In this document: piece after piece, positions 2,887-23,570 of the stretch
How positions within the stretch are numbered: the first letter of the stretch is position 1
Layout: each line of letters opens with the position of its first letter
Assembly (NCBI GenBank): GCA_016876035.1
Contig: VGOE01000015.1
Location: 1-43,969 of the forward strand
Length of the DNA: 43,969 nt
Direction: 5' to 3'
Origin: Chloroflexota bacterium
Lineage (GTDB): Bacteria; Chloroflexota; Dehalococcoidia; UBA2247; RBG-13-53-26
Position numbers and translations under genes: made by a program
Notes under the pieces: generated by a model
What the model was told of the DNA's origin: nothing
Seen by the model: the letters and a program-made list of their open reading frames with translations, nothing else
Databases searched by the model: none

Positions 2887-4890
2887 CTAAATCTTCCTTC
2901 CCACCTCTGACCCTTCAGCAATAGCCTCCAGCGCCTTGCGGGGCTGCTTGGCATCGCCAATAACATAGACCTCGGCCACTTTACCTTTGATCTTCTGGCT
3001 CAACTCGTCCACCGACTTAGCACCCAAGGCCAGGATGATAGCATCCATGCCGCAGATAGTTTGCTGCACCTGCCCATCCTTGAGGACCAACGTCCCATCG
3101 CTAAGGGTCTCCTTCACGGTCTTAACAATCACCACACCGTCCTCAAGAATTTCTTTGACCTTGGTACAGGTCAGGATGTTGACCCCACTCTCCCGCAGCC
3201 TCTGCAGCAGCAACGTCCTGCCCTCAGGCACGATATCCATGCCCACACTGTCCAGCATCTCCACAATCGTCACAGCAGTGCGACCGACGACCGGATTATC
3301 GCCCGGGCTGGCCAGGTACTCAGCCACCTCAAGGCCTACCATGCCCCCGCCAAGCACCAAGACGTTGCCGCACGGCACAAAGACTTTACCCGCCAGAACA
3401 TCATGGGCAGAAACTACCTTGTCGCCCTTTATACCAGGAATATTAGGGACGAGGGACTCGCCACCGCTGGCCACAATGACCACATCCGGTTTCACCTCGG
3501 CCACAAGCTCCGGTGTGACCCTGGTGTTCCACTTCATTATAACCCCGGCCTTCTGCGCCTGGGTACGGAGATACTTGATGCCTTTCGATAGCTCTTGCTT
3601 CATAGGAGGCACAGCAGCCAGCTTAAGCTGCCCCCCGGGCTCTGTATCTTTTTCATAGAGGGTAACCTGATGTCCCCTCAAGGCAGCCACTCGTGCTGCC
3701 TCCAGTCCCCCAGGGCCAGCACCCACCACCATCACCTTTTTCGGCTTGGTTGCTGGAGTAATGGCCATCTCCTTCTCCCTGCCCACAGTGGGATTGATGA
3801 AGCAGGTCATCGGCCTGCCCTCAGCCCGACCAGCGATACATCCCAGCCCGCAGCCCACACAGGGGGCAATGTCATCGAACCTTCCTTCTGCTGCCTTGTT
3901 AGGCAGCTCTGGATCAGCCAGGAGCGCTCGCCCCATAACTATCACATCCGCCTGGTTTCTGCGCAGTATATCCTCCGCTAACCTGGGATCATTGATCCTG
4001 CCTACCACCATTACTGGTATATCTACCACTTCCTTGATCGCTGCCGAGAAAGCCACATTCAGGCCCCGCGGTGTACCGGTGGGAGGCAATATGCGCCAGG
4101 ACATTTGAGGAAATGTGCCGCTGGAGATATGGAAAGCATCCACCCCGGCCTCAGCCAGAATGGGAGCGATGTACTGTGTCTCCTCCAGGTTACGACCGCC
4201 CGGTGTCAGTTCATCCCCGGAGAGCCTCATGATTATGGGAAAGTCAGTACCCGCCTTGGCGCGGATATTCTTGATAACCTCCAGAGGCAGCTTGAGGCGA
4301 TCCTCAATTGAGCCACCATAGGCATCGGTCCGTCTGTTGCGCAAAGACGAGATGAAGGAGCCCAACAGCATATAGCTATGCGCTGCATGAAGTTCCAACC
4401 CATCACATCCAGCCTCCCTGGCCCGCCTGGCCGCGTCACCGAACTGCTCTACTATACGCTCGATCTCTGCTGCACTTAGCTCCCGACAGATCTGCTTGTG
4501 GCTATGGGACAGAATAACAGAGGGGCCCACCGGCTGGATCCCGTAGAAGAAAGAAACTGACTCTGGCCCTGGATGAGAAATCTGAGGCACTATCTTGGAT
4601 CCGTGGGCATGGACAGCATCCGTCAACTGCCGCATGGCAGGAATAAGCTTGTCATCCCACAGGCCGACAGTGTGCTGCACATAGGGAAACTTGGCATCTA
4701 TTGAGGTGACTTCCAGGATAATCAACGCCGCCCCGCCTCGCGCCCGGGCCTCGATATAGGCTCTGTACCCCTCAGAGACGCTGCCATCAGGATTGGCATA
4801 GTTGGTGGCCATGGGAGCCATGGCGATGCGGTTTTTTAGTTTCATGGAATTGATTTTGATAGGGCTGAACAGCTTTTGCAGTGATTTCAC
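2887..4890 (-). CDS. 2,4-dienoyl-CoA reductase-like NADH:flavin oxidoreductase (OYE family, Fe-S/FAD)
   Basis: A 667-residue multidomain flavoenzyme. Residues 1-340 form the FMN-binding Old Yellow Enzyme barrel (start LFSPIKI, HAAHSYMLLGSF active-site loop, VVGRINDP and VMGRALLADP phosphate-binding strands). Cys344, 347, 351 and 363 (C-x2-C-x3-C-x11-C) match the 4Fe-4S ligands of E. coli FadH. An FAD domain follows (VMVVGAGPGG near 388) with a second nucleotide fold (LVLGGGMVG near 512). The family passes electrons from NAD(P)H through FAD, the cluster and FMN to enoyl or enone substrates; FadH reduces 2,4-dienoyl-CoA, and the bile-acid enzymes BaiCD/BaiH belong here. The substrate is unknown. 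It starts with GTG after AGGGGATC. It lies 51 bases downstream of its paralogue, so the two are probably one transcript. Confidence 0.85.
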   Translation of the reverse strand: MKSLQKLFSPIKINSMKLKNRIAMAPMATNYANPDGSVSEGYRAYIEARARGGAALIILEVTSIDAKFPYVQHTVGLWDDKLIPAMRQLTDAVHAHGSKIVPQISHPGPESVSFFYGIQPVGPSVILSHSHKQICRELSAAEIERIVEQFGDAARRAREAGCDGLELHAAHSYMLLGSFISSLRNRRTDAYGGSIEDRLKLPLEVIKNIRAKAGTDFPIIMRLSGDELTPGGRNLEETQYIAPILAEAGVDAFHISSGTFPQMSWRILPPTGTPRGLNVAFSAAIKEVVDIPVMVVGRINDPRLAEDILRRNQADVIVMGRALLADPELPNKAAEGRFDDIAPCVGCGLGCIAGRAEGRPMTCFINPTVGREKEMAITPATKPKKVMVVGAGPGGLEAARVAALRGHQVTLYEKDTEPGGQLKLAAVPPMKQELSKGIKYLRTQAQKAGVIMKWNTRVTPELVAEVKPDVVIVASGGESLVPNIPGIKGDKVVSAHDVLAGKVFVPCGNVLVLGGGMVGLEVAEYLASPGDNPVVGRTAVTIVEMLDSVGMDIVPEGRTLLLQRLRESGVNILTCTKVKEILEDGVVIVKTVKETLSDGTLVLKDGQVQQTICGMDAIILALGAKSVDELSQKIKGKVAEVYVIGDAKQPRKALEAIAEGSEVGRKI

Positions 4891-4941
4891 CTTTGATCCC
4901 CTTTCTGTCGACTCTAAATAAACCCTGCCCGGCAGATTCAG

Positions 4942-7005
4942 CTATATCTTGCAGGCGATACTCATAGCGTCGGCAACAGCCTTCTTTATCAAGCCCAGTT
5001 CGGCACAGTCGCCCGCGACGTAGATTTCCGGTACCCTCCCTTCAAGAGCGCGGGATAGTTCCAAATTGGGCTTCACTTCGCCAGCCAGAATCACAGTGTC
5101 CCCCTCAACCACCTGCTTCTCCCCTCGCTCAGAAGCAATGATCACTCCCTTCGGCAGTATCTCCTCACACTTCACTCCAAGCATAACGGTAACGCCGTTC
5201 TCTTGAAGTTGACCCTCCAGTTCTGTTTTTCTCTTCAGCCCCACCTCAGGCGCAATCTGCCCCCCACCTTCCACAATGGTCACCTTTCTGCCCCTCTCCG
5301 CCAGGAAAACTGCCAACTCACAGCCAGCCAGATCGCCACCCACTACAACTACTCTCTTGCCCACCGGCATCCACAGCTTTGTCAGACGCCTTACACGCGA
5401 CGCCGTTAGGTAGCGCTGCATGAAAGGAGAGCCAAGATACAGACCCAGTCTCTGCCACAATGGAAGCTTGTTAACTCCGCCCTCTTTGAGATGACCACCA
5501 AGCATCTGCTTCAATCCCGGACCGCTGAGCACGTTGCGCCCCCCATCCCCAAGGATGCTGGGCGCTACCAGATTGGGCCCTAAGGCCACAATGACTACGT
5601 CCGGCTTGACGTTTTCCACAAGCTCCGGCGTGACTTCTCTTCCGAGCTTGATCTCCACAGGCAGTCGTTTCATTTGTGTGACTAGGTATTTTAGGAAATC
5701 GTCATTGTCGCTGTGAACCGTGCAGGCAAAAGTCAACGACCCACCTAGCCGTTGCTGTTTCTCATATAGGGTTACCTTGTGCCCACGCAATGCTGCACCT
5801 CTGGCGGCTTCCATCCCCGCCGGACCACCACCTATCACCATTACCTTCCTGGCTCGATCAGCCCGATCCAGCCGGTACTCTCCTTCTTTCCCAGTAGCAG
5901 CATTGATCGCACAGGCTGTAGATCCGTCACTGAAGAAGGAGTCGAAACAGTGATGACAGGAAATACACCGACGGATGTCTTTCCACCTGCCTTCTGCCGC
6001 TTTCCGGGGCAGTTCCGGGTCAGCCAGCATGGGCCGCCCCATTACTATCAGGTCTGCCTGGTTCTTTTGCAGTATGTCCTCGGCGAATTGAGGATCATGT
6101 ATCCTTCCCACCACCATGATGGGCACATCTACCACTTTCTTGATGGCCGCCGCAGCCGGTACATTCAAACCGTCTGGGAAAGCCGATCCTGTGATGATGT
6201 TCGTGGCCAGGTTGTCGTCAATCACCCCGCCGGAAACATGGAAGGCATCCACCCCTGCCTCGACCAGCATGGGAGCAATCTGCTGCGTCCCACGGATGTC
6301 TCGGGCACCGGGGGCACGTTCATCGCCGGAGATTCGGATTGTCAGAGGGAAATCATGCCCTGCCCTGGCTTTCATACTTTTGATGACGGCTATGGGGAAT
6401 TTGAGGCGCCCCTCAACAGTGCTGCCATTGTAGGCATCTGTCCGCTTGTTGCGCAGAGACGACAAGAAAGAGCCTGCCAGCATATAGCTGTGAGCACAAT
6501 GAATCTCCATCCCATCGTAGCCGGCTTCCCTGGCCCGCCTGGCTGCCTCACCGTACTGCTCTATTGCCGTCTCAATCTCCTCTAAGGCAAGTTCCCGGCA
6601 CGTCAGGCCGGTCGCTGCTGATGTGACAATAGACGGCCCAACCGGCGGAATCTTGTAAAACAAGGGAGCTAGCGACTCTGGCCCCGGGTGGGATATCTGA
6701 GGCACCACCTTGGCCCCATGAGCATGTATCGCCTTCGTCAGCGCTTGGTGGCTGGCGATCAGCTTGTCGTCCCAAAGCCCTAGAGACAGCGGCTGATACT
6801 TGTGCGGACGGTCCACCGTACAAACTTCCACTGTAATTAGCCCCACTCCACCCCTAGCCCGTGCCTCATAGTAGTCAATCAGCCTCTGGGATGGGGTCTC
6901 ATCCTGGTTGGCATACTGCGTCGTCATCGGGGACATAACGAGGCGGTTTCTTAACTCCATAGTTCCAATCTTGATGGGGCTGAACAACTTGGTAAGTGAT
7001 GCCAC
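4942..7005 (-). CDS. Second 2,4-dienoyl-CoA reductase-like flavoenzyme, paralogue of the downstream gene
   Basis: A 687-residue paralogue with the same order: OYE barrel (1-345), Fe-S cysteines, FAD domain (VMVIGGGPAG) and a second Rossmann fold (VVVVGGDLAGCELA). The cysteines are 347, 350, 353 and 365, giving C-x2-C-x2-C-x11-C, one residue shorter between the second and third Cys than FadH. An extra ~60-residue, Leu/Arg-rich insertion precedes the second nucleotide fold (around LPLWQRLGLYLGSPF), also unlike the neighbour. The two enzymes therefore probably act on different substrates. The start is a GTG preceded by GAGGGAGGG. The C-terminus LKKA-type end AVADAMSIACKI suggests full length. 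It is the first gene of a leftward operon with a promoter at 7166-7195. Confidence 0.85.
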   Translation of the reverse strand: MASLTKLFSPIKIGTMELRNRLVMSPMTTQYANQDETPSQRLIDYYEARARGGVGLITVEVCTVDRPHKYQPLSLGLWDDKLIASHQALTKAIHAHGAKVVPQISHPGPESLAPLFYKIPPVGPSIVTSAATGLTCRELALEEIETAIEQYGEAARRAREAGYDGMEIHCAHSYMLAGSFLSSLRNKRTDAYNGSTVEGRLKFPIAVIKSMKARAGHDFPLTIRISGDERAPGARDIRGTQQIAPMLVEAGVDAFHVSGGVIDDNLATNIITGSAFPDGLNVPAAAAIKKVVDVPIMVVGRIHDPQFAEDILQKNQADLIVMGRPMLADPELPRKAAEGRWKDIRRCISCHHCFDSFFSDGSTACAINAATGKEGEYRLDRADRARKVMVIGGGPAGMEAARGAALRGHKVTLYEKQQRLGGSLTFACTVHSDNDDFLKYLVTQMKRLPVEIKLGREVTPELVENVKPDVVIVALGPNLVAPSILGDGGRNVLSGPGLKQMLGGHLKEGGVNKLPLWQRLGLYLGSPFMQRYLTASRVRRLTKLWMPVGKRVVVVGGDLAGCELAVFLAERGRKVTIVEGGGQIAPEVGLKRKTELEGQLQENGVTVMLGVKCEEILPKGVIIASERGEKQVVEGDTVILAGEVKPNLELSRALEGRVPEIYVAGDCAELGLIKKAVADAMSIACKI

Positions 7006-8614: not shown

Positions 8615-10819
<2,205 letters not shown>

Positions 10820-15824: not shown

Positions 15825-16232
15825 TTAGCCGACGTTCATTACGCGGCCAGTGCTGGTTGCCACTACCTCACCGCGCTGATTCTTTATGGTTGACTTAAAA
15901 GAAATGAGTAATCGCTTGCCTTTCTCGCTGGACTTGTCTTCCACGTTACTAAGCTCATTGGTGACAGTGAGCACGTCCCCCGGTTTGATAGGCTTGAAAA
16001 ACTCCAAATCCAGTCCGGCATCGACGATCACCGGATAGGGCCACTCCATGTGAGTCCCCTCACCCACGAACATCGCTCCAGTTAGCAGGCCGGGCGGGAA
16101 AACCTTTGCCCATTTAGGGTTGCGGTCTTCCACGGTATCGCAATAGAGGCGAATCATACTCTTATCGGCCTCGAGGGTCACCTCGCTACCACATTTCCCT
16201 ATCATAGCTTTCAGGTCTTCAACAGTGGCCAT
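15825..16232 (-). CDS. MaoC-like hot-dog protein lacking the hydratase histidine
   Basis: A 135-residue single hot-dog domain of the MaoC/FAS1-like dehydratase N-terminal type. The segment CDTVEDRNPKW aligns with the hydratase-2 motif GDxNPxH: Asp36, Asn38 and Pro39 are present, but the catalytic His is Trp41. DLEFFKPIKPGDVLTV is the family second motif. In split hydratases such as mycobacterial ChsH1-ChsH2 and HadAB, one subunit lacks catalytic residues and binds the acyl chain while its partner does chemistry; this protein looks like the non-catalytic half. The ATG at 16232 is chosen because AAGGAGG lies eight bases upstream. It is last in a six-gene operon with DUF35 and thiolase genes. 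No catalytic MaoC partner is in the window. Confidence 0.75.
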   Translation of the reverse strand: MATVEDLKAMIGKCGSEVTLEADKSMIRLYCDTVEDRNPKWAKVFPPGLLTGAMFVGEGTHMEWPYPVIVDAGLDLEFFKPIKPGDVLTVTNELSNVEDKSSEKGKRLLISFKSTIKNQRGEVVATSTGRVMNVG

Positions 16233-16297
16233 GTTCTTTGCCTCCTTACTTGGGATTCTACGCCTTGCCAATTCGCAAGGCGATCACAGGCTACAGG

Positions 16298-17512
16298 CTA
16301 CCAGGCCTTACTCAAAATGCAAGCGGCATTGTTTCCGGCGTACCCATAGGTTTGGGCCAGCGCTACCTTGGGATTGTTCTTGACCTGCCGCTCACCGGCT
16401 TCGCCGCGCAACTGCTTCACTAGCTCGTATATCTGGAACAATCCCTGAGCCACCACCGCCTCGCCGCAGGCACCCAGGCCGCCGCTAGGACAAACTGGAA
16501 GCTCGCCGTCAATGGGGTCGACCTTACCGCTCCTGAGCAGCTTTTCAGCCTCCCCGTCCTTCGCCTGGAGCATGCAGTCTAGATAGGCGAAGTAGTGCCA
16601 GGAGCTATTGTCTGGCAACTCTATTACATCTATGTCCTCTGGTTTCCTGCCGGACATCTTGTAGGCAGCAGCGATGGCGTTTCTGCTCTCTGTCAGGATG
16701 CCAACGCCCGGTCTAGGGTAAGCACTCAAGTACGTCAAAGGTATGGTGTGATCGCCAAAGGTGGGGCTGCCGATGACGGCGGCCTCCACCAGCACGGGCT
16801 TCTTGGTATACTTCTTGGCTTTGTCTGCGGCACACACTATGATGGCCCCCGCTCCGTCGCTGGTAGCGCAAATCTCCATCAGGTGCAGCGGGGCACATAC
16901 CATTGGCGATTCCAAGACCTGCTGCTTGGTGAAGGCCTTCTTGTATCTTGTCTTTGGGTTAAGAGGGGCAATCTTGCTGGTTATGACTTTGACCATGGCC
17001 AGATCATCTTCGGTAGTACCTAAGTCGTGCATTCTTCTCTGGCACTCCATGGCCCAGTAGGCTGGATTCGTCTCTCCTGTCATGACGTAACGTATGTAGT
17101 CCAGGTCGAATTGGGGATCCTGCGATTGTGGTCTGAAGAAGCCCCCGGCGGACCTATCGGCTGCCACGGCGATGGCGGTGTCATACAATCCGCTGGCAAC
17201 TGCCAGATAGGCTTCTCTGAAGATGGCCCCGCCGGTAGCGCAGGCATTGGCACAACTGGTGATAGGTATTCCGATTCCGCCCATGGCCGCGGAGATAGCT
17301 GTGCCACTCAATATTCCGAACATGCCTTCTCTCTGGGACACCCAGAGATAGGTGCCAGCGACCATTGATTGAATCTCTCGCCACTCCATCTTGGCATCTG
17401 CCAGGGCCTCTGATATGGCCTCCACAGCCATTTCAGGCATTGACCTATCGGGGAACACGCCCCACGGATGTAGTCCCACACCCACTATGGCTACGTCCCT
17501 AAATTTCTTCAC
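16298..17512 (-). CDS. SCP-x-type thiolase / Ltp2-like aldolase
   Basis: A 404-residue thiolase-fold protein. It starts VAIVGVGLHPWG, has the nucleophile-loop SCANACATGG (Cys87, Cys91), and the C-terminal motif PSGGLGACGEAVVAQG. Canonical thiolases have GGxxxxGHPxGA there, so the GHP histidine is replaced. The last motif is QTYGYAGNN. Such SCP2-type enzymes work with a DUF35 OB-fold protein, as does mycobacterial Ltp2, which catalyses retro-aldol cleavage of steroid side-chain CoA thioesters rather than thiolysis. The adjacent DUF35 gene (50 bases upstream) supports a complex. A retained Cys91 leaves thiolysis possible, so the choice between thiolase and aldolase is open. Start is GTG with GGAGAA upstream. 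Confidence 0.8.
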   Translation of the reverse strand: MKKFRDVAIVGVGLHPWGVFPDRSMPEMAVEAISEALADAKMEWREIQSMVAGTYLWVSQREGMFGILSGTAISAAMGGIGIPITSCANACATGGAIFREAYLAVASGLYDTAIAVAADRSAGGFFRPQSQDPQFDLDYIRYVMTGETNPAYWAMECQRRMHDLGTTEDDLAMVKVITSKIAPLNPKTRYKKAFTKQQVLESPMVCAPLHLMEICATSDGAGAIIVCAADKAKKYTKKPVLVEAAVIGSPTFGDHTIPLTYLSAYPRPGVGILTESRNAIAAAYKMSGRKPEDIDVIELPDNSSWHYFAYLDCMLQAKDGEAEKLLRSGKVDPIDGELPVCPSGGLGACGEAVVAQGLFQIYELVKQLRGEAGERQVKNNPKVALAQTYGYAGNNAACILSKAW

Positions 17513-17562
17513 CGTTTTCTCCTTAGTCCTAATTCTCTCTTCAGCACCAGAACTGATTCAGC

Positions 17563-17988
17563 CTACACCGGCTTCCACATCCAGGTGATATACTCCTTCT
17601 CCGCATCCTCGTACAGCTTTCCCGTGGTCATTTCCAGCGTCATCCCTATCTTCAAGTTATCATTACTGGTCAGGATGCCCAGAACCCTCAGGCCTTCCTC
17701 GGTGTCTACCATGCCGATAGCGTAGGGCTGGAAGGGCAGGGGTTCCTTCCTGAAGGGTGCCGGCGGAGCGTATTGCTGAACAGTCCACGTCCACAGCTTC
17801 CCTTTGTTGCTCAGCTTTATCTGCTCCACATTTTCTCTCACTTTTTCGCAGCTAGGATTGGCACAGAACGCTGCTTTAGGAAAGGTCACCGTGCCACACT
17901 TCTTGCATCTGCTAGCTATGAGCTGAGGCTTATCGGAGGGCCAGGTAAACAGCCCTTCGATTATGGGGACTTGCTTCTTGGCAGTCAT
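17563..17988 (-). CDS. DUF35 OB-fold protein with rubredoxin-like zinc ribbon
   Basis: A 141-residue partner protein. The N-terminal zinc ribbon has CKKCGTVTFPKAAFCANPSC, supplying four Cys. The OB-fold (about 60-135) contains LSNKGKLWTWTVQQYAPPAP, then PYAIGMVDTEEGLRVLGIL. DUF35 proteins bind the CoA part of substrates and dock onto thiolase-fold enzymes; in ChsH2 this domain is fused to a MaoC domain and recruits Ltp2. Here DUF35 and MaoC-like parts are separate genes flanking the thiolase gene, which is a split version of that arrangement. Start ATG follows AGGAG. Confidence 0.85.
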   Translation of the reverse strand: MTAKKQVPIIEGLFTWPSDKPQLIASRCKKCGTVTFPKAAFCANPSCEKVRENVEQIKLSNKGKLWTWTVQQYAPPAPFRKEPLPFQPYAIGMVDTEEGLRVLGILTSNDNLKIGMTLEMTTGKLYEDAEKEYITWMWKPV

Positions 17989-18053
17989 ACCTACTGAACT
18001 CCTTTCTTAGCTTCTTGTTTCCTGCGACCATTATAGAAAATGAGACACTAGGT

Positions 18054-19181
18054 TCAAAGCCCAATCTCTCGCGCTACAAGCTGGCGCTGAAAGCGAGCGT
18101 CGCCAAAAGCGAACTCAGATGCCTTGGCCCGCTTGGAATAAAGAGGCAGGTCGTGATCTTCACAGAAACCAATGGCTCCGTGACACTGGTGAGCCAGGTC
18201 TGAAATTCGTCTGTACGCCTCGCTGGTCCAGACCTTGGCCACGGCAGCCTCTTTGCCAAACGGAAGACCCTCGTTTACCTTCCAGGCTGCCAGGTAGGTC
18301 ACATACTTCATCCCTTCCAGATCAATCAGCATATTGGCGCAGTGGTGCTGAATAGCCTGCAAGCTGCCAATCGGGTGGTCGAACTGGACTCTCTGTTTGA
18401 CGTAATCAACAGTCATGTCCAAGACCTGCTGAGCACCACCTGTCATTTCTGCGCACTTGGCTACTGTAGCTACCTGGAGCAGCTTCTGAAGATACTCTCC
18501 GCCCTTGTGAACTTCGCCCAGGATACTGCCCTGGGGAATTCTCACCCTATTCAAAGTCACCTGGAACTGCTTGTCACCGGCTATAGCATCAATCGGGATG
18601 ACAGTCAGGTTGGGATGCTTGGCATCCACTAGGAAGAGAGTGATTCCTTGCTGGCCGGAATTGTCTTTGCTTCTCGCGGCGCACAGCACGAGGTCAGCTA
18701 GGTGAGCATACTCCACAAAGAGCTTAGTGCCATCAACACTATATTCCTTGCCGTCGGCTGTAGCCTGACATTGAAGAGCATTAAGCTCATAGCCCACGTC
18801 CGGTTCACTTACAGCCAGGGTCAGTACCAGCTTACCTTGGGCTATCTTGGGAAGCAATCCCTTCTTCTGTTCTTCGCTTCCCACTTCGAGGATCGCCAGG
18901 CTACCTATCAGAGTAGGGAAGAACGGTCCGGGCAAGGCTGCTCTTCCCATTTCCTCGAGGAGCACGGCAACATCAAGGAAGCTGCCCTCGATTCCTCCGT
19001 ACTTCTCTGGAATAACAAGCCCCATCCAGCCCAGTTCTGCCATTTTCCCCCACAGCTCGGGGGTGTAACCCTTTTCGTCCTTCACGATCTTTCTTACTAG
19101 ATCCTTTGGACACTCAGTAGACAGGAAATCACGGGCTATTTTCCTTAGCATTTCTTGCTCTTCAGTAAAGGAAAAATCCAT
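18054..19181 (-). CDS. Acyl-CoA dehydrogenase, probably the non-catalytic subunit of a heteromer
   Basis: A 375-residue FAD-fold protein with acyl-CoA dehydrogenase N-terminal (MDFSFTEEQEMLRKIARDFL), middle (LAVSEPDVGYELNALQ) and C-terminal helical domains. The usual closing motif (E)GTSExQR reads SEFAFGDARFQR, so the MCAD-type Glu is Phe. The alternative IVD/LCAD position in helix G (LQVATVAKCAEMTGGA) also has no acid. The middle-domain SEPxxGSD motif is altered to SEPDVGYE. Actinobacterial steroid enzymes such as ChsE1-ChsE2 are alpha2-beta2 heteromers with one catalytic subunit, and the adjacent gene, 13 bases upstream, is the likely partner. Activity alone is doubtful. Confidence 0.8.
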   Translation of the reverse strand: MDFSFTEEQEMLRKIARDFLSTECPKDLVRKIVKDEKGYTPELWGKMAELGWMGLVIPEKYGGIEGSFLDVAVLLEEMGRAALPGPFFPTLIGSLAILEVGSEEQKKGLLPKIAQGKLVLTLAVSEPDVGYELNALQCQATADGKEYSVDGTKLFVEYAHLADLVLCAARSKDNSGQQGITLFLVDAKHPNLTVIPIDAIAGDKQFQVTLNRVRIPQGSILGEVHKGGEYLQKLLQVATVAKCAEMTGGAQQVLDMTVDYVKQRVQFDHPIGSLQAIQHHCANMLIDLEGMKYVTYLAAWKVNEGLPFGKEAAVAKVWTSEAYRRISDLAHQCHGAIGFCEDHDLPLYSKRAKASEFAFGDARFQRQLVAREIGL

Positions 19182-19194
19182 ACCTCTGTCCTTC

Positions 19195-20376
19195 TTAGCT
19201 TCTGGGCAAGCCCAGACCTCTTAGCGCTATGGTGTTTCTTTGAATCTCCGAGGTACCACCCGCCAGGCTCAGACCCCTGTTGAAATTGTATAGAAACATG
19301 AATCTTCTTCTCAACGAGGCCCATTTGGAGTTATCCCTTAGCTGCACCTGTGGTCCCAGGACTTGCAACCCTACGTTGGCCATGCGCTGCCCCAGTTCGT
19401 CAGCAAAGACTTTGACTACAGAAGACTCCCAACTGATGCTAGATCCCTTGTTCAGCAGCCAGACAGCCTTGTAGCTAAGCATGCGGCACACCTCTAGCTC
19501 GACGGCTATCTCCGCCAACGTGTCTTGCAAAACCCGATCCTCTTTTAGGCTTCGGCCGTCATACTTGGCTTCGTTTACGTATTGCACCAAGTCTTCCAAA
19601 TCTCTCCAGCTTCCAGCGTGTCTCAAACATCTGCCCCAGAACCTGTCTCCTTCCAGGCATTCGAATACAAGAGGCAGCCCTCGGTTCTCCTGACCGAGAA
19701 GATGTCTCTTGGGGACACGAACGTCCTCGAGGAATATCTCATTGAAAGACTTAGCTCCGGCCATATCTATGATTGGGTTCACGGTTACCCCCGGACTTCT
19801 TACATCCACCAAGAAGGTGCTCAGCCCTCTCGCTTTGGGAGCATCTGGATCTGTTCTGGCCAGAATCAGGCTCCACTCCGCGAGATGAGCACCGGTAGGC
19901 CATATCTTCTGCCCATTGAGTATGTAGTCATCGCCGTTTTTCACAGCGCGTGTCGCTGTGTTTAGTAAGTCGGAGCCTGCCCCCGGCTCGCTCAACCCTG
20001 TAGACCAAAATATCTCTCCCCTGGCCATCTTGGGGAGGAACTCACTCTTTTGCTCTTGGGTGCCGTGGGCCACAATGCCTGCCCCAACAGCGTCGTTAAA
20101 CAGATGTCCGTATTGTGGTGCTCTATGGTAAGCTAGCTCTTCGGCGGCAACAAAGCGCTCCATAACCGAGCGTCCCAGCCCCCCATACTCTTTGGGCCAC
20201 GTTATGCCCAGCCATCCCTTTTCCCCCAGTTTCCGCGTAAAGGCCCTAGACCATCCGCCAAAACCATAACCCTCATCTTCGATTTCACAGGGGAAACTTT
20301 CTAGATTCTCTTTCTGGCAAAACTGGCGAACCTCTGCCCGAAGTGCCTCTTCTTTCTCAGAAAATCGGAAGTCCAT
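19195..20376 (-). CDS. Acyl-CoA dehydrogenase, probable catalytic subunit
   Basis: A 393-residue flavoenzyme that introduces a 2,3-double bond in acyl-CoA. It has WPKEYGGLG, the FAD/substrate motif TGLSEPGAGSDLLNTAT, and the C-terminal FAD motif LAGGTSEIQRNTIALRGLGL. Gly replaces the MCAD-type catalytic Glu, but Asp244 in LEGDRFWG falls near the helix-G acid of isovaleryl-CoA dehydrogenase, so it can serve as base. Its start codon overlaps the stop of the upstream split-barrel gene (TAATG), indicating translational coupling. It lies 13 bases before the second dehydrogenase. Together they probably form a two-subunit dehydrogenase for bulky acyl-CoA. Electron-transferring flavoprotein genes are not in the window. 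Confidence 0.85.
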   Translation of the reverse strand: MDFRFSEKEEALRAEVRQFCQKENLESFPCEIEDEGYGFGGWSRAFTRKLGEKGWLGITWPKEYGGLGRSVMERFVAAEELAYHRAPQYGHLFNDAVGAGIVAHGTQEQKSEFLPKMARGEIFWSTGLSEPGAGSDLLNTATRAVKNGDDYILNGQKIWPTGAHLAEWSLILARTDPDAPKARGLSTFLVDVRSPGVTVNPIIDMAGAKSFNEIFLEDVRVPKRHLLGQENRGLPLVFECLEGDRFWGRCLRHAGSWRDLEDLVQYVNEAKYDGRSLKEDRVLQDTLAEIAVELEVCRMLSYKAVWLLNKGSSISWESSVVKVFADELGQRMANVGLQVLGPQVQLRDNSKWASLRRRFMFLYNFNRGLSLAGGTSEIQRNTIALRGLGLPRS

Positions 20377-20768
20377 TATACCTTTGCCCCGCCTTTCATA
20401 GGAGGCATGATAGACGCATGTTCAACGGCTATTTTGACAACAGAATGAACCTCCATTTTCATCGGGGCAAACTGAGCCTTGAAGGAGTCCAACAGATCAC
20501 CAGACTTGATTATTTGTGCTTTTCCACTGATGCGACAGCCTCCCCAGGTGTCTGGGTCGAAGACCATGACCGACACCTGTGGATTCTCTCTGATGTTAGC
20601 CATGGTCTGCGGGGATGCTATTTCGGCGAAGACGACGTGCTCGTCATCGAGCACTCGGAAAGATCCTTTGGGCGAGACATTCGGTTTGCCATTCTTGCTT
20701 GCCGTGGCTACGAAAGCGGGTACAACGCGCGAGATCATCTTCTTAGCTTCTTCTGGTAGCTTTGCCAT
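20376..20768 (-). CDS. Pyridoxamine-5'-phosphate-oxidase-like split-barrel flavoprotein
   Basis: A 130-residue split beta-barrel protein. The N-terminal motif VVPAFVATASKNGKPNVSPK, the strand HVVFAEIASPQTMANIRENP and VSVMVFDPDTWGG fit the PNPOx-like family that binds FMN or F420. True PdxH is longer and has a different substrate loop. Members reduce a range of flavin- or F420-dependent substrates, or bind haem. It is the first gene of the igr-like operon and is coupled to the dehydrogenase gene by a one-base stop/start overlap, so it may act on the same substrate class. AGGAGGGG lies upstream of the ATG. Confidence 0.8.
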   Translation of the reverse strand: MAKLPEEAKKMISRVVPAFVATASKNGKPNVSPKGSFRVLDDEHVVFAEIASPQTMANIRENPQVSVMVFDPDTWGGCRISGKAQIIKSGDLLDSFKAQFAPMKMEVHSVVKIAVEHASIMPPMKGGAKV

Positions 20769-20789: not shown

Positions 20790-20818
20790 ATTCTAGCATT
20801 GATGCCTTGAAAAGGCAA
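20790..20818 (-). promoter_or_regulatory. Promoter of the six-gene acyl-CoA operon
   Basis: On the minus strand TTGCCT (20813-20818), a 17-base spacer and TAGAAT (20790-20795) lie 22 bases before the first start codon. No further promoter was seen inside the operon, whose gaps are mostly under 70 bases. The 317-base gap 20769-21085 otherwise holds only the divergent promoter at 21019. Confidence 0.5.
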
Positions 20819-22702: not shown

Positions 22703-22787
22703 AGATTGTCACGAGCACTTGAAGTGGAGCTGACTCAAAGCTACAATTGAGGCTAAACGGCCCACAAGCCTGTAGGAGGTGACTGGA
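22703..22787 (+). promoter_or_regulatory. Leader/promoter copy 2, upstream of enoyl-CoA hydratase
   Basis: TTGAAG (22719-22724), 17 bases, TACAAT (22742-22747), then AATTGAGG, AAACGGCCC and the AGGAGG site. It is homologous along its length to 21003-21085, including the -35, the -10 and the sequence between -10 and the ribosome site. Confidence 0.55.
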
Positions 22788-23570
22788 ATGCCAGCGTTTA
22801 TCTACGAGAAGAAGGGAAGGATCGCCTATCTCACCATCAACCGGCCCGAGGCGCGCAACGCCATGAACCGCGAAGTCTGGGATGGGCTGGTAAAAGCCTG
22901 GAAAGACGTGGGAGACAACCCTGACATCTGGATAGCCATTGTGACCGCCACTGGTGACAAGGCCTTCTCATCAGGGCAGGACTTGAAGGAGATGGCTGAG
23001 TGGATGGCCATCCCCGAGGACAAGCGTCCCCCTATGCCACTGCCGGAAGTCAACCCTATGCGCGGCATGCAGGTATGGAAGCCCTTCATCGCCGCCATCA
23101 ACGGCCTTTGTATCGGCGGGGGACTGGAGCTGGCCATGGCCTGCGATCTCAGGATTGCGGCCAGTACCGCCAGGCTCGGTCTGGCCGAGGTCAAGTCAGC
23201 AGTCATACCGGGGAACAGCGGCAGCCAGAAGCTGCCACGTTTGATACCTTTTGCCAAGGCTTTGGAGCTCCTCATGACTGGCGACCTGATGGAGGCCGAG
23301 GAGGCCTGCCGACTTGGTCTGGTGAACAAGGTGGTCCCCTTTGATCAACTCATGCCCGAGGCTGAGGCGCTGGCCAACCGCATCTGCGAAAATGGCCCCC
23401 TAGCCGTCAGGGCAGTCAAGGAACTGGCGTACCGCGGCATAGAGATGAGCCTGGCCGACGGGCTACGACTGGAACTGGAAATCGGCGCCCGCCTTTCGAA
23501 GAGCGAAGACTCTATGGAAGGGCCAAGGGCTTTCGCCGAGAAGAGAAAGCCAGTGTGGAAGGGGAGATAA
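22788..23570 (+). CDS. Enoyl-CoA hydratase/isomerase (crotonase) family protein
   Basis: A 260-residue cytosolic enzyme. INRPEARNAMNREV is the N-terminal family motif. The CoA/oxyanion loop is AFSSGQDLKEM. GLCIGGGLELAMACDLRIA carries the first catalytic Glu, and LAEVKSAVIPGNSGSQKLPR the second Glu position. Canonical hydratases read PExxLGxxPGxGGTQRL, so LG is SA and GGT is SGS, which may change the substrate or reaction. Crotonases also include isomerases, hydrolases and ring-cleaving enzymes. ATG 22788 follows AGGAGG by eight bases; the GTG at 22779 overlaps that site. Likely works with the other acyl-CoA enzymes of the window, although expressed from its own promoter. Confidence 0.85.
   Translation: MPAFIYEKKGRIAYLTINRPEARNAMNREVWDGLVKAWKDVGDNPDIWIAIVTATGDKAFSSGQDLKEMAEWMAIPEDKRPPMPLPEVNPMRGMQVWKPFIAAINGLCIGGGLELAMACDLRIAASTARLGLAEVKSAVIPGNSGSQKLPRLIPFAKALELLMTGDLMEAEEACRLGLVNKVVPFDQLMPEAEALANRICENGPLAVRAVKELAYRGIEMSLADGLRLELEIGARLSKSEDSMEGPRAFAEKRKPVWKGR

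Follow-up and report, generated by a model that had tools for sequence, protein, structure and literature searches.

A family-conserved Chloroflexota operon resembling igr in part, with a putative heteromeric acyl-CoA dehydrogenase and a DUF35-partnered thiolase-fold protein

A stretch of 43,969 nucleotides (nt) of a Chloroflexota bacterium (assembly GCA_016876035.1, contig VGOE01000015.1), hereafter the window, carries on its minus strand a block of six open reading frames (ORFs) at 15825-20768, which a preliminary description of this DNA had listed as six leftward genes in tight order and likened to the igr operon of Mycobacterium. The six ORFs were confirmed at the coordinates given there, and the spacing and the Pfam identities also agreed with that description. 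By Pfam assignment the order of transcription is PNPOx-AcdA-AcdB-DUF35-Thl-MaoC, with a 1-nt overlap between PNPOx and AcdA (-1 nt) and gaps of 13 nt (AcdA-AcdB), 65 nt (AcdB-DUF35), 50 nt (DUF35-Thl) and 65 nt (Thl-MaoC). The profiles matched were PNPOx_N, Acyl-CoA_dh (twice), OB_ChsH2_C with zf-ChsH2, Thiolase_C_1 and FAS1_DH_region, while Thiolase_N fell under the cut-off; the features are shown in Table 1. We consider that the operon probably encodes a module for shortening coenzyme A (CoA) esters, composed of a heteromeric dehydrogenase, a DUF35-Thl cleavage pair and a non-catalytic MaoC partner, and it works partly like igr yet is no igr operon, being a conserved variant rather than a copy.

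Table 1. Genes and promoter-like sites of the six-gene block and the evidence for each.
Feature	Position	Strand	Evidence
PNPOx split-barrel flavin-type protein, 130 aa, first gene	20376..20768	-	PF01243, 72 bits
AcdA, predicted alpha-type (catalytic) subunit of a heteromeric acyl-CoA dehydrogenase	19195..20376	-	best PDB match 4x28_A; tree; residues
AcdB, predicted beta-type (non-catalytic) subunit	18054..19181	-	beta clade with ChsE5/Tcur3481; residues
Stand-alone DUF35 protein, C4 zinc ribbon and OB fold	17563..17988	-	PF12172, 35 bits; PF01796, 50 bits
SCP-x thiolase-fold protein (Thl), PDN clade, GTG start	16298..17512	-	PRK06059; tree; invariant residues; model
MaoC-like hot-dog protein, 135 aa	15825..16232	-	PF13452, 43 bits; model
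Promoter-like site between AcdB and DUF35, perhaps an internal promoter	18030..18057	-	TTGAAC-16-TATAAT, 10/12, consensus match only
Promoter-like site before PNPOx, TG ahead of the -10	20790..20818	-	TTGCCT-17-TAGAAT, 9/12, consensus match only

Against PDB sequences, AcdA scored highest with ChsE4 (4x28_A, 212 bits), followed by Tcur3483 (182 bits), with ordinary acyl-CoA dehydrogenases (ACADs) at ≤161 bits, while AcdB scored best with ordinary ACADs (169 bits, butyryl-CoA dehydrogenase) and reached 154 bits with Tcur3481. Since AcdB taken alone scored best with ordinary ACADs, a tree was needed, and one was constructed from the window pair, reference sequences and the paralogs of the same genome. 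In this tree AcdA falls in an alpha clade with ChsE4 and Tcur3483 (21 rows, support 100/99) and AcdB in a beta clade with ChsE5 and Tcur3481 (18 rows, support 100/100), with the ordinary ACADs outside both. The residues of the two proteins complement each other: AcdA has Asp244 at the position of ChsE4 Glu247, the catalytic-base site of ChsE4, and lacks the RxQF motif, while AcdB has no catalytic glutamate at either known site and keeps the RxQF motif for flavin adenine dinucleotide (FAD) as RVQF (Arg264). The tree and the lost glutamate thus rule out AcdB as an ordinary butyryl-CoA dehydrogenase. In alpha2beta2 enzymes the alpha subunit holds the flavin, the base and the substrate and the beta subunit the ADP-ribose side (PMC11153573), and AcdA and AcdB split the FAD and catalytic-base motifs in this manner, which supports a reading of the two as a ChsE-type alpha/beta pair. 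In addition, AcdA Pro87 matches ChsE4 Pro89 in the alignment; the latter belongs to a pair of prolines tied to a wide pocket and is a mark of ACADs for bulky substrates (PMC11153573). The window pair therefore resembles ChsE4-ChsE5 (4x28) and Tcur3483-Tcur3481 (6wy8) in the motif split and in the E-helix proline of the alpha subunit; however, the base in AcdA is aspartate rather than glutamate, and the pair lies on a separate sub-branch. The pairs of this genome nearest to the Chs references are on contigs C17, C24 and C26, and the window pair forms a sister sub-branch with paralogs on C43. The suggestion in the preliminary description that the two dehydrogenases form a ChsE-type heteromer, for which it had called for a phylogeny, is thus supported by the tree and the complementary motifs.

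The block was found, whole or as contig-edge pieces, in nine of ten genomes of the same family, so the gene arrangement is not due to chance. It is complete in six genomes (the window, G101, G115, G159, G138 and G197), while the copy in G181 is frame-disrupted, that in G052 is split over two contig ends and that in G170 is a contig-edge remnant. Identity of the block proteins among the family copies goes down to about 45-60%, PNPOx is the first gene in all complete copies, and in most copies a DnaJ gene lies 3′ of the block. The gene-neighbourhood survey proposed in the preliminary description hence reveals linkage that is conserved within the family. Beyond the family, no full block was present among 79 named genome loci, nor beside the thiolase matches of 197 genomes of the class (search at E 1e-60), and the DUF35-Thl pair alone spreads widely. 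That the genes belong to ordinary short-chain beta-oxidation and are adjacent by accident agrees with the best PDB score of AcdB alone, with butyryl-CoA dehydrogenase, but is hardly credible and largely refuted, as the trees place both ACADs with heteromeric subunits and the block is conserved in the family; neither branching with ordinary beta-oxidation families nor absence of linkage was found, and the general idea of the preliminary description survives.

Thl scored 351 bits against PRK06059, under its cut-off of 424, and in its tree it belongs to a clade, named PDN here after its motif, and the archaeal thiolases, SCP2-thiolase, BbsB, Ltp2 and Sal all lie outside it; the members of the PDN clade come from archaea and several bacterial phyla and are uncharacterised. 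Where SCP2-thiolases and BbsB have HDxF, Thl has Pro300-Asp301-Asn302 (PDNS), with Pro300 at the histidine, and where they have GHP it has GEA, with Glu351 at the histidine. Six residues (Cys91, Asp301, Asn302, Gly350, Glu351 and Ala352) are invariant in 35-36 PDN members, down to 37% identity. The 6ok1 sequence served as Ltp2 reference in all comparisons: Thl has PDNS for YDHF and valine (GEAV) at the tyrosine of GEAYIHG, and both catalytic tyrosines of Ltp2 are gone; by our own reading of the alignment, the tyrosine of GEAY is probably Tyr344. Relative to Sal, it has PDNS for YDCY and no equivalents of Tyr302 and Cys304. Catalytic roles have been described for Tyr294 and Tyr344 of Ltp2 and for Tyr302 and Cys304 of Sal (PMC12329534). 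The Ltp2-type cleavage expected in the preliminary description is not supported, as the phylogeny puts Thl outside the Ltp2/Sal clade and Tyr294, Tyr344 and YDHF are absent.

The AlphaFold model of Thl (predicted local distance difference test, pLDDT, 89) aligned at full length with DUF35-partnered enzymes, and its Z-scores were 51.7 for 6esq, 50.6 for SCP2-thiolase, 50.3 for BbsB, 44.9 for Ltp2 and 43.6 for Sal. Thl shares the SCP-x fold and the DUF35 pairing with Ltp2-ChsH2(DUF35) (6ok1) and Sal-Shy(DUF35) (9myr), and Ltp2 also has GEA for GHP; however, Thl differs in PDNS against YDHF or YDCY, in the valine at the GEAY tyrosine of Ltp2 and in its separate clade. The nearest folds, BbsAB (7pxp) and the archaeal complex of acetoacetyl-CoA thiolase, DUF35 and 3-hydroxy-3-methylglutaryl-CoA synthase (6esq), have a stand-alone DUF35 and the nucleophilic cysteine as in the window, but Thl is without their HDAF/HDCF and GHP histidines. 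Thl is thus a thiolase-fold enzyme with a DUF35 partner, and the known motifs do not tell which chemistry it performs. The favoured explanation can be put more sharply, in a form that is possible though somewhat doubtful: a branched, alicyclic or dicarboxylic acid would pass through a modified beta-oxidation in which DUF35-Thl carries out a CoA-dependent cleavage via Cys91 as in BbsAB, with hydration and 3-hydroxyacyl oxidation encoded elsewhere. The Cys91 invariant in 35 relatives, the closer fit of the model to the archaeal thiolase, SCP2-thiolase and BbsB than to Ltp2, the best NCBIfam profile of AcdA (PimC, 210 bits) and the position of archaeal relatives beside a 3-hydroxyacyl-CoA dehydrogenase and of Desulfobacterota relatives beside crotonase and CoA ligase all speak for such a pathway, but all close relatives have other residues (Pro300, Glu351) in place of both thiolase catalytic histidines.

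The DUF35 protein of the window belongs to the ChsH2 C-terminal family, is encoded by a stand-alone gene and has the four zinc-ribbon cysteines (Cys28, 31, 42 and 47). In 78 of 79 loci, across phyla, the gene next upstream of the PDN thiolase encodes DUF35, and pairing of this kind is known for Ltp2, Sal and BbsAB and from archaeal complexes (PMC12329534). The neighbours of this cassette vary. In Desulfobacterota and others they are crotonase, an ADP-forming CoA ligase and 'cyclase' genes; proteobacterial loci have two MaoC-like genes together with an AMP-dependent ligase, and the Dehalococcoidia metagenome-assembled genome (MAG) W403 has methylmalonyl-CoA mutase and epimerase. In Nezhaarchaeota the cassette is near-solitary, with a 3-hydroxyacyl-CoA dehydrogenase opposite. 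Such variety supports the idea that one C-C cleaving cassette, DUF35 with the PDN thiolase, may serve in several pathways. We tentatively put forward that the PDN clade (Cys91, Asp301-Asn302, Glu351; stand-alone DUF35) could be a third catalytic class beside the SCP2-thiolases and the Ltp2/Sal aldolases, in which a C-C cleaving cassette would be joined to a heteromeric dehydrogenase in Chloroflexota, to crotonase and ADP-forming CoA ligase in Desulfobacterota, to a MaoC pair in Proteobacteria and to a methylmalonyl-CoA mutase set in the Dehalococcoidia MAG.

Several of these loci deserve a record of their own. The DUF35-Thl pairs of L086, L087 and L093 (Nezhaarchaeota, Thermoprotei) share 65-69% identity with the window protein, values that also occur inside its own bacterial family, so transfer between archaea and Chloroflexota appears likely. 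L126 (1-9179) and about 30 similar Desulfobacterota loci harbor a PDN operon with a transhydroxylase-like molybdopterin enzyme, ADP-forming CoA ligase, crotonase and, in places, 'cyclase' genes, and may represent an undescribed anaerobic ring-degradation pathway; the 'cyclase' genes recall DPGC (PMC10470551), and a reading as phloroglucinol degradation was set aside. The proteobacterial loci L143-L162 combine two MaoC-like genes with DUF35, a CoA ligase and a PDN-type thiolase, making up a hydratase and cleavage set in an igr-like layout; their first MaoC-like protein reads GRFNPNH, with arginine where aspartate is usual.

In the MaoC-like protein of the window, the histidine of D-x-N-P-x-H is Trp41 in seven of seven orthologs, and the catalytic Asp/His dyad is lost. 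Its model (pLDDT 79) was nearest in Foldseek to chains of 4w78, which from their length we take to be ChsH2, and to HadA, and nearest in VIA-align to HadA and Rv0130 (Z about 14.8). The fold and the replaced histidine are common to the non-catalytic hot-dog partners HadA and the MaoC domain of ChsH2, and ChsH2 is the inert partner of ChsH1 (PMC11321319); compared with ChsH2, the window protein has tryptophan rather than tyrosine and no adjacent gene for a catalytic partner. Catalytic MaoC genes of this genome are found on C6 and C26, two in all and each paired with a partner of its own, and none lies in the operon; the crotonase at 22779-23570 was dismissed as hydratase of the operon, being on the opposite strand and unlinked in relatives. 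Hydration by the MaoC protein of the operon, as the preliminary description had it, is thus not supported, given the tryptophan at the catalytic histidine and no ChsH1-like partner in the operon. The loss of catalytic residues in both Thl and the MaoC-like protein would also suit a scaffold, in which the two proteins are dead and merely bind or channel CoA intermediates for the dehydrogenase; this is quite improbable, as Cys91, Asp301, Asn302 and Glu351 are invariant in those 35-36 diverse sequences, which argues for an active site. As for PNPOx, use of coenzyme F420 is unlikely because CofD is absent from the genome, and an F420-dependent PNPOx was rejected on this ground.

In the CoA-ester shortening module that we favour, AcdA and AcdB would form, as their sequences suggest, an alpha2beta2 ACAD with shared FAD sites, AcdA providing flavin, substrate and the Asp244 base and AcdB the adenine side of FAD, and this enzyme would desaturate a CoA ester, probably a branched or bulky one. 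DUF35 would bind Thl, and the pair would use Cys91 and an atypical Asn302/Glu351 site to cleave a C-C bond of a downstream intermediate. As for the MaoC-like protein, it may act as a non-catalytic, substrate-holding partner like the MaoC domain of ChsH2 and would need a catalytic hydratase encoded elsewhere, and PNPOx would be a flavin mononucleotide protein. Three points weigh against this module: the operon contains only one MaoC-like gene, with no catalytic MaoC partner and no catalytic hydratase; Thl lacks both SCP2-thiolase histidines and both Ltp2 tyrosines, so C-C cleavage is not assured; and in genomes beyond the family the ACAD and DUF35-Thl pairs are not direct neighbours, except for a looser association in L142 and on an M. 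branderi plasmid with a related thiolase. If the proposal is right, Chloroflexota of sediments and groundwater oxidise acids that are branched or bulky by means of a split dehydrogenase of the kind that acts on cholesterol in mycobacteria, together with a DUF35-thiolase pair that has an active site unlike those of the characterised enzymes compared. The DUF35-PDN pair is common in uncultured anaerobes, and one biochemical assignment would then annotate many genes now called 'lipid-transfer protein' or 'acetyl-CoA acetyltransferase'.

The igr operon of M. tuberculosis and ORF40-44 of Comamonas testosteroni TA441 (ChsE1-ChsE2, ChsH1-ChsH2, Ltp2) likewise hold a heteromeric ACAD pair, a DUF35 of the ChsH2 C-terminal family, an SCP-x-fold protein and a MaoC-like protein in one block. 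However, the block in the window has separate genes for DUF35 and MaoC and lacks a catalytic MaoC, the thiolase belongs to another clade without the Ltp2 tyrosines, the PNPOx gene is an extra without igr counterpart, and the host genome has no cytochrome P450. Of the claim that the block is the same set as igr, the dehydrogenase pair and the igr-type DUF35 with its zinc ribbon stand, while the Ltp2-type aldolase and the ChsH1-ChsH2-type hydratase do not and PNPOx is additional; the separation of the DUF35 and MaoC parts was correctly noted, with DUF35 directly upstream of the thiolase-like gene. A steroid substrate finds no support: profile searches of the 97.7% complete genome gave no P450 and a single Rieske match, in an open frame of 127 aa, which argue against an aerobic route of steroid degradation, anaerobic steroid routes not having been searched. 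The same two results count against a true igr equivalent, which would dehydrogenate, hydrate and cleave by retro-aldol reaction a steroid- or terpenoid-like CoA ester with release of propionyl-CoA. The same kinds of parts, the alpha2beta2-type dehydrogenase, the bulky-pocket mark Pro87 of AcdA and a related module (L090) beside methylmalonyl-CoA mutase and epimerase, which would process propionyl-CoA, agree with it, but Thl lies outside the Ltp2/Sal clade without their catalytic residues, the hydratase histidine of the MaoC-like protein is lost, and an Ltp2-like protein and the ChsE-nearest pairs are encoded elsewhere in the genome, making such an equivalent unlikely.

Several igr-like modules are present in this 2.5 Mb genome, with 30 ACAD genes, about ten of them beta-type, and at least one of these modules resembles igr more closely than the window operon does. 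Contig C59 (L071, 385-3215) carries a crotonase, an Ltp2-sister thiolase-like protein, a ChsH2-type DUF35 and then a methylmalonyl-CoA epimerase-like VOC protein. This thiolase-like protein is sister to Ltp2 (99/96) and keeps tyrosines in YDEM and in NTHGG..EGYLHG, and the adjacent DUF35 is the best ChsH2-type DUF35 of the genome, so C59 is the strongest candidate, within this genome, for a true aldolase operon of the Ltp2 type. On C26 (L164, 4306-12926), a ChsH2-like MaoC_N (NPLY) and a catalytic MaoC lie between two alpha/beta ACAD pairs, with two type III CoA-transferases next in line, and at L069 with C43 14004-20660, a fused DUF35 protein and an HDCF thiolase precede a row of six ACAD genes of mixed alpha and beta type.

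The start of the MaoC-like gene is most likely the ATG at 16232 behind AGGAGG, giving 135 aa, rather than the TTG at 16271. The single promoter assumed in the preliminary description is not established, as the promoter-like site inside the block, in the AcdB-DUF35 gap, outscores that before PNPOx (10/12 against 9/12), consensus matches of this kind being weak evidence. Elsewhere in the window, two tandem old-yellow-enzyme/pyridine nucleotide reductases of the 2,4-dienoyl-CoA reductase type were located at 2887-7005 and a catalase-peroxidase at 8615-10786.

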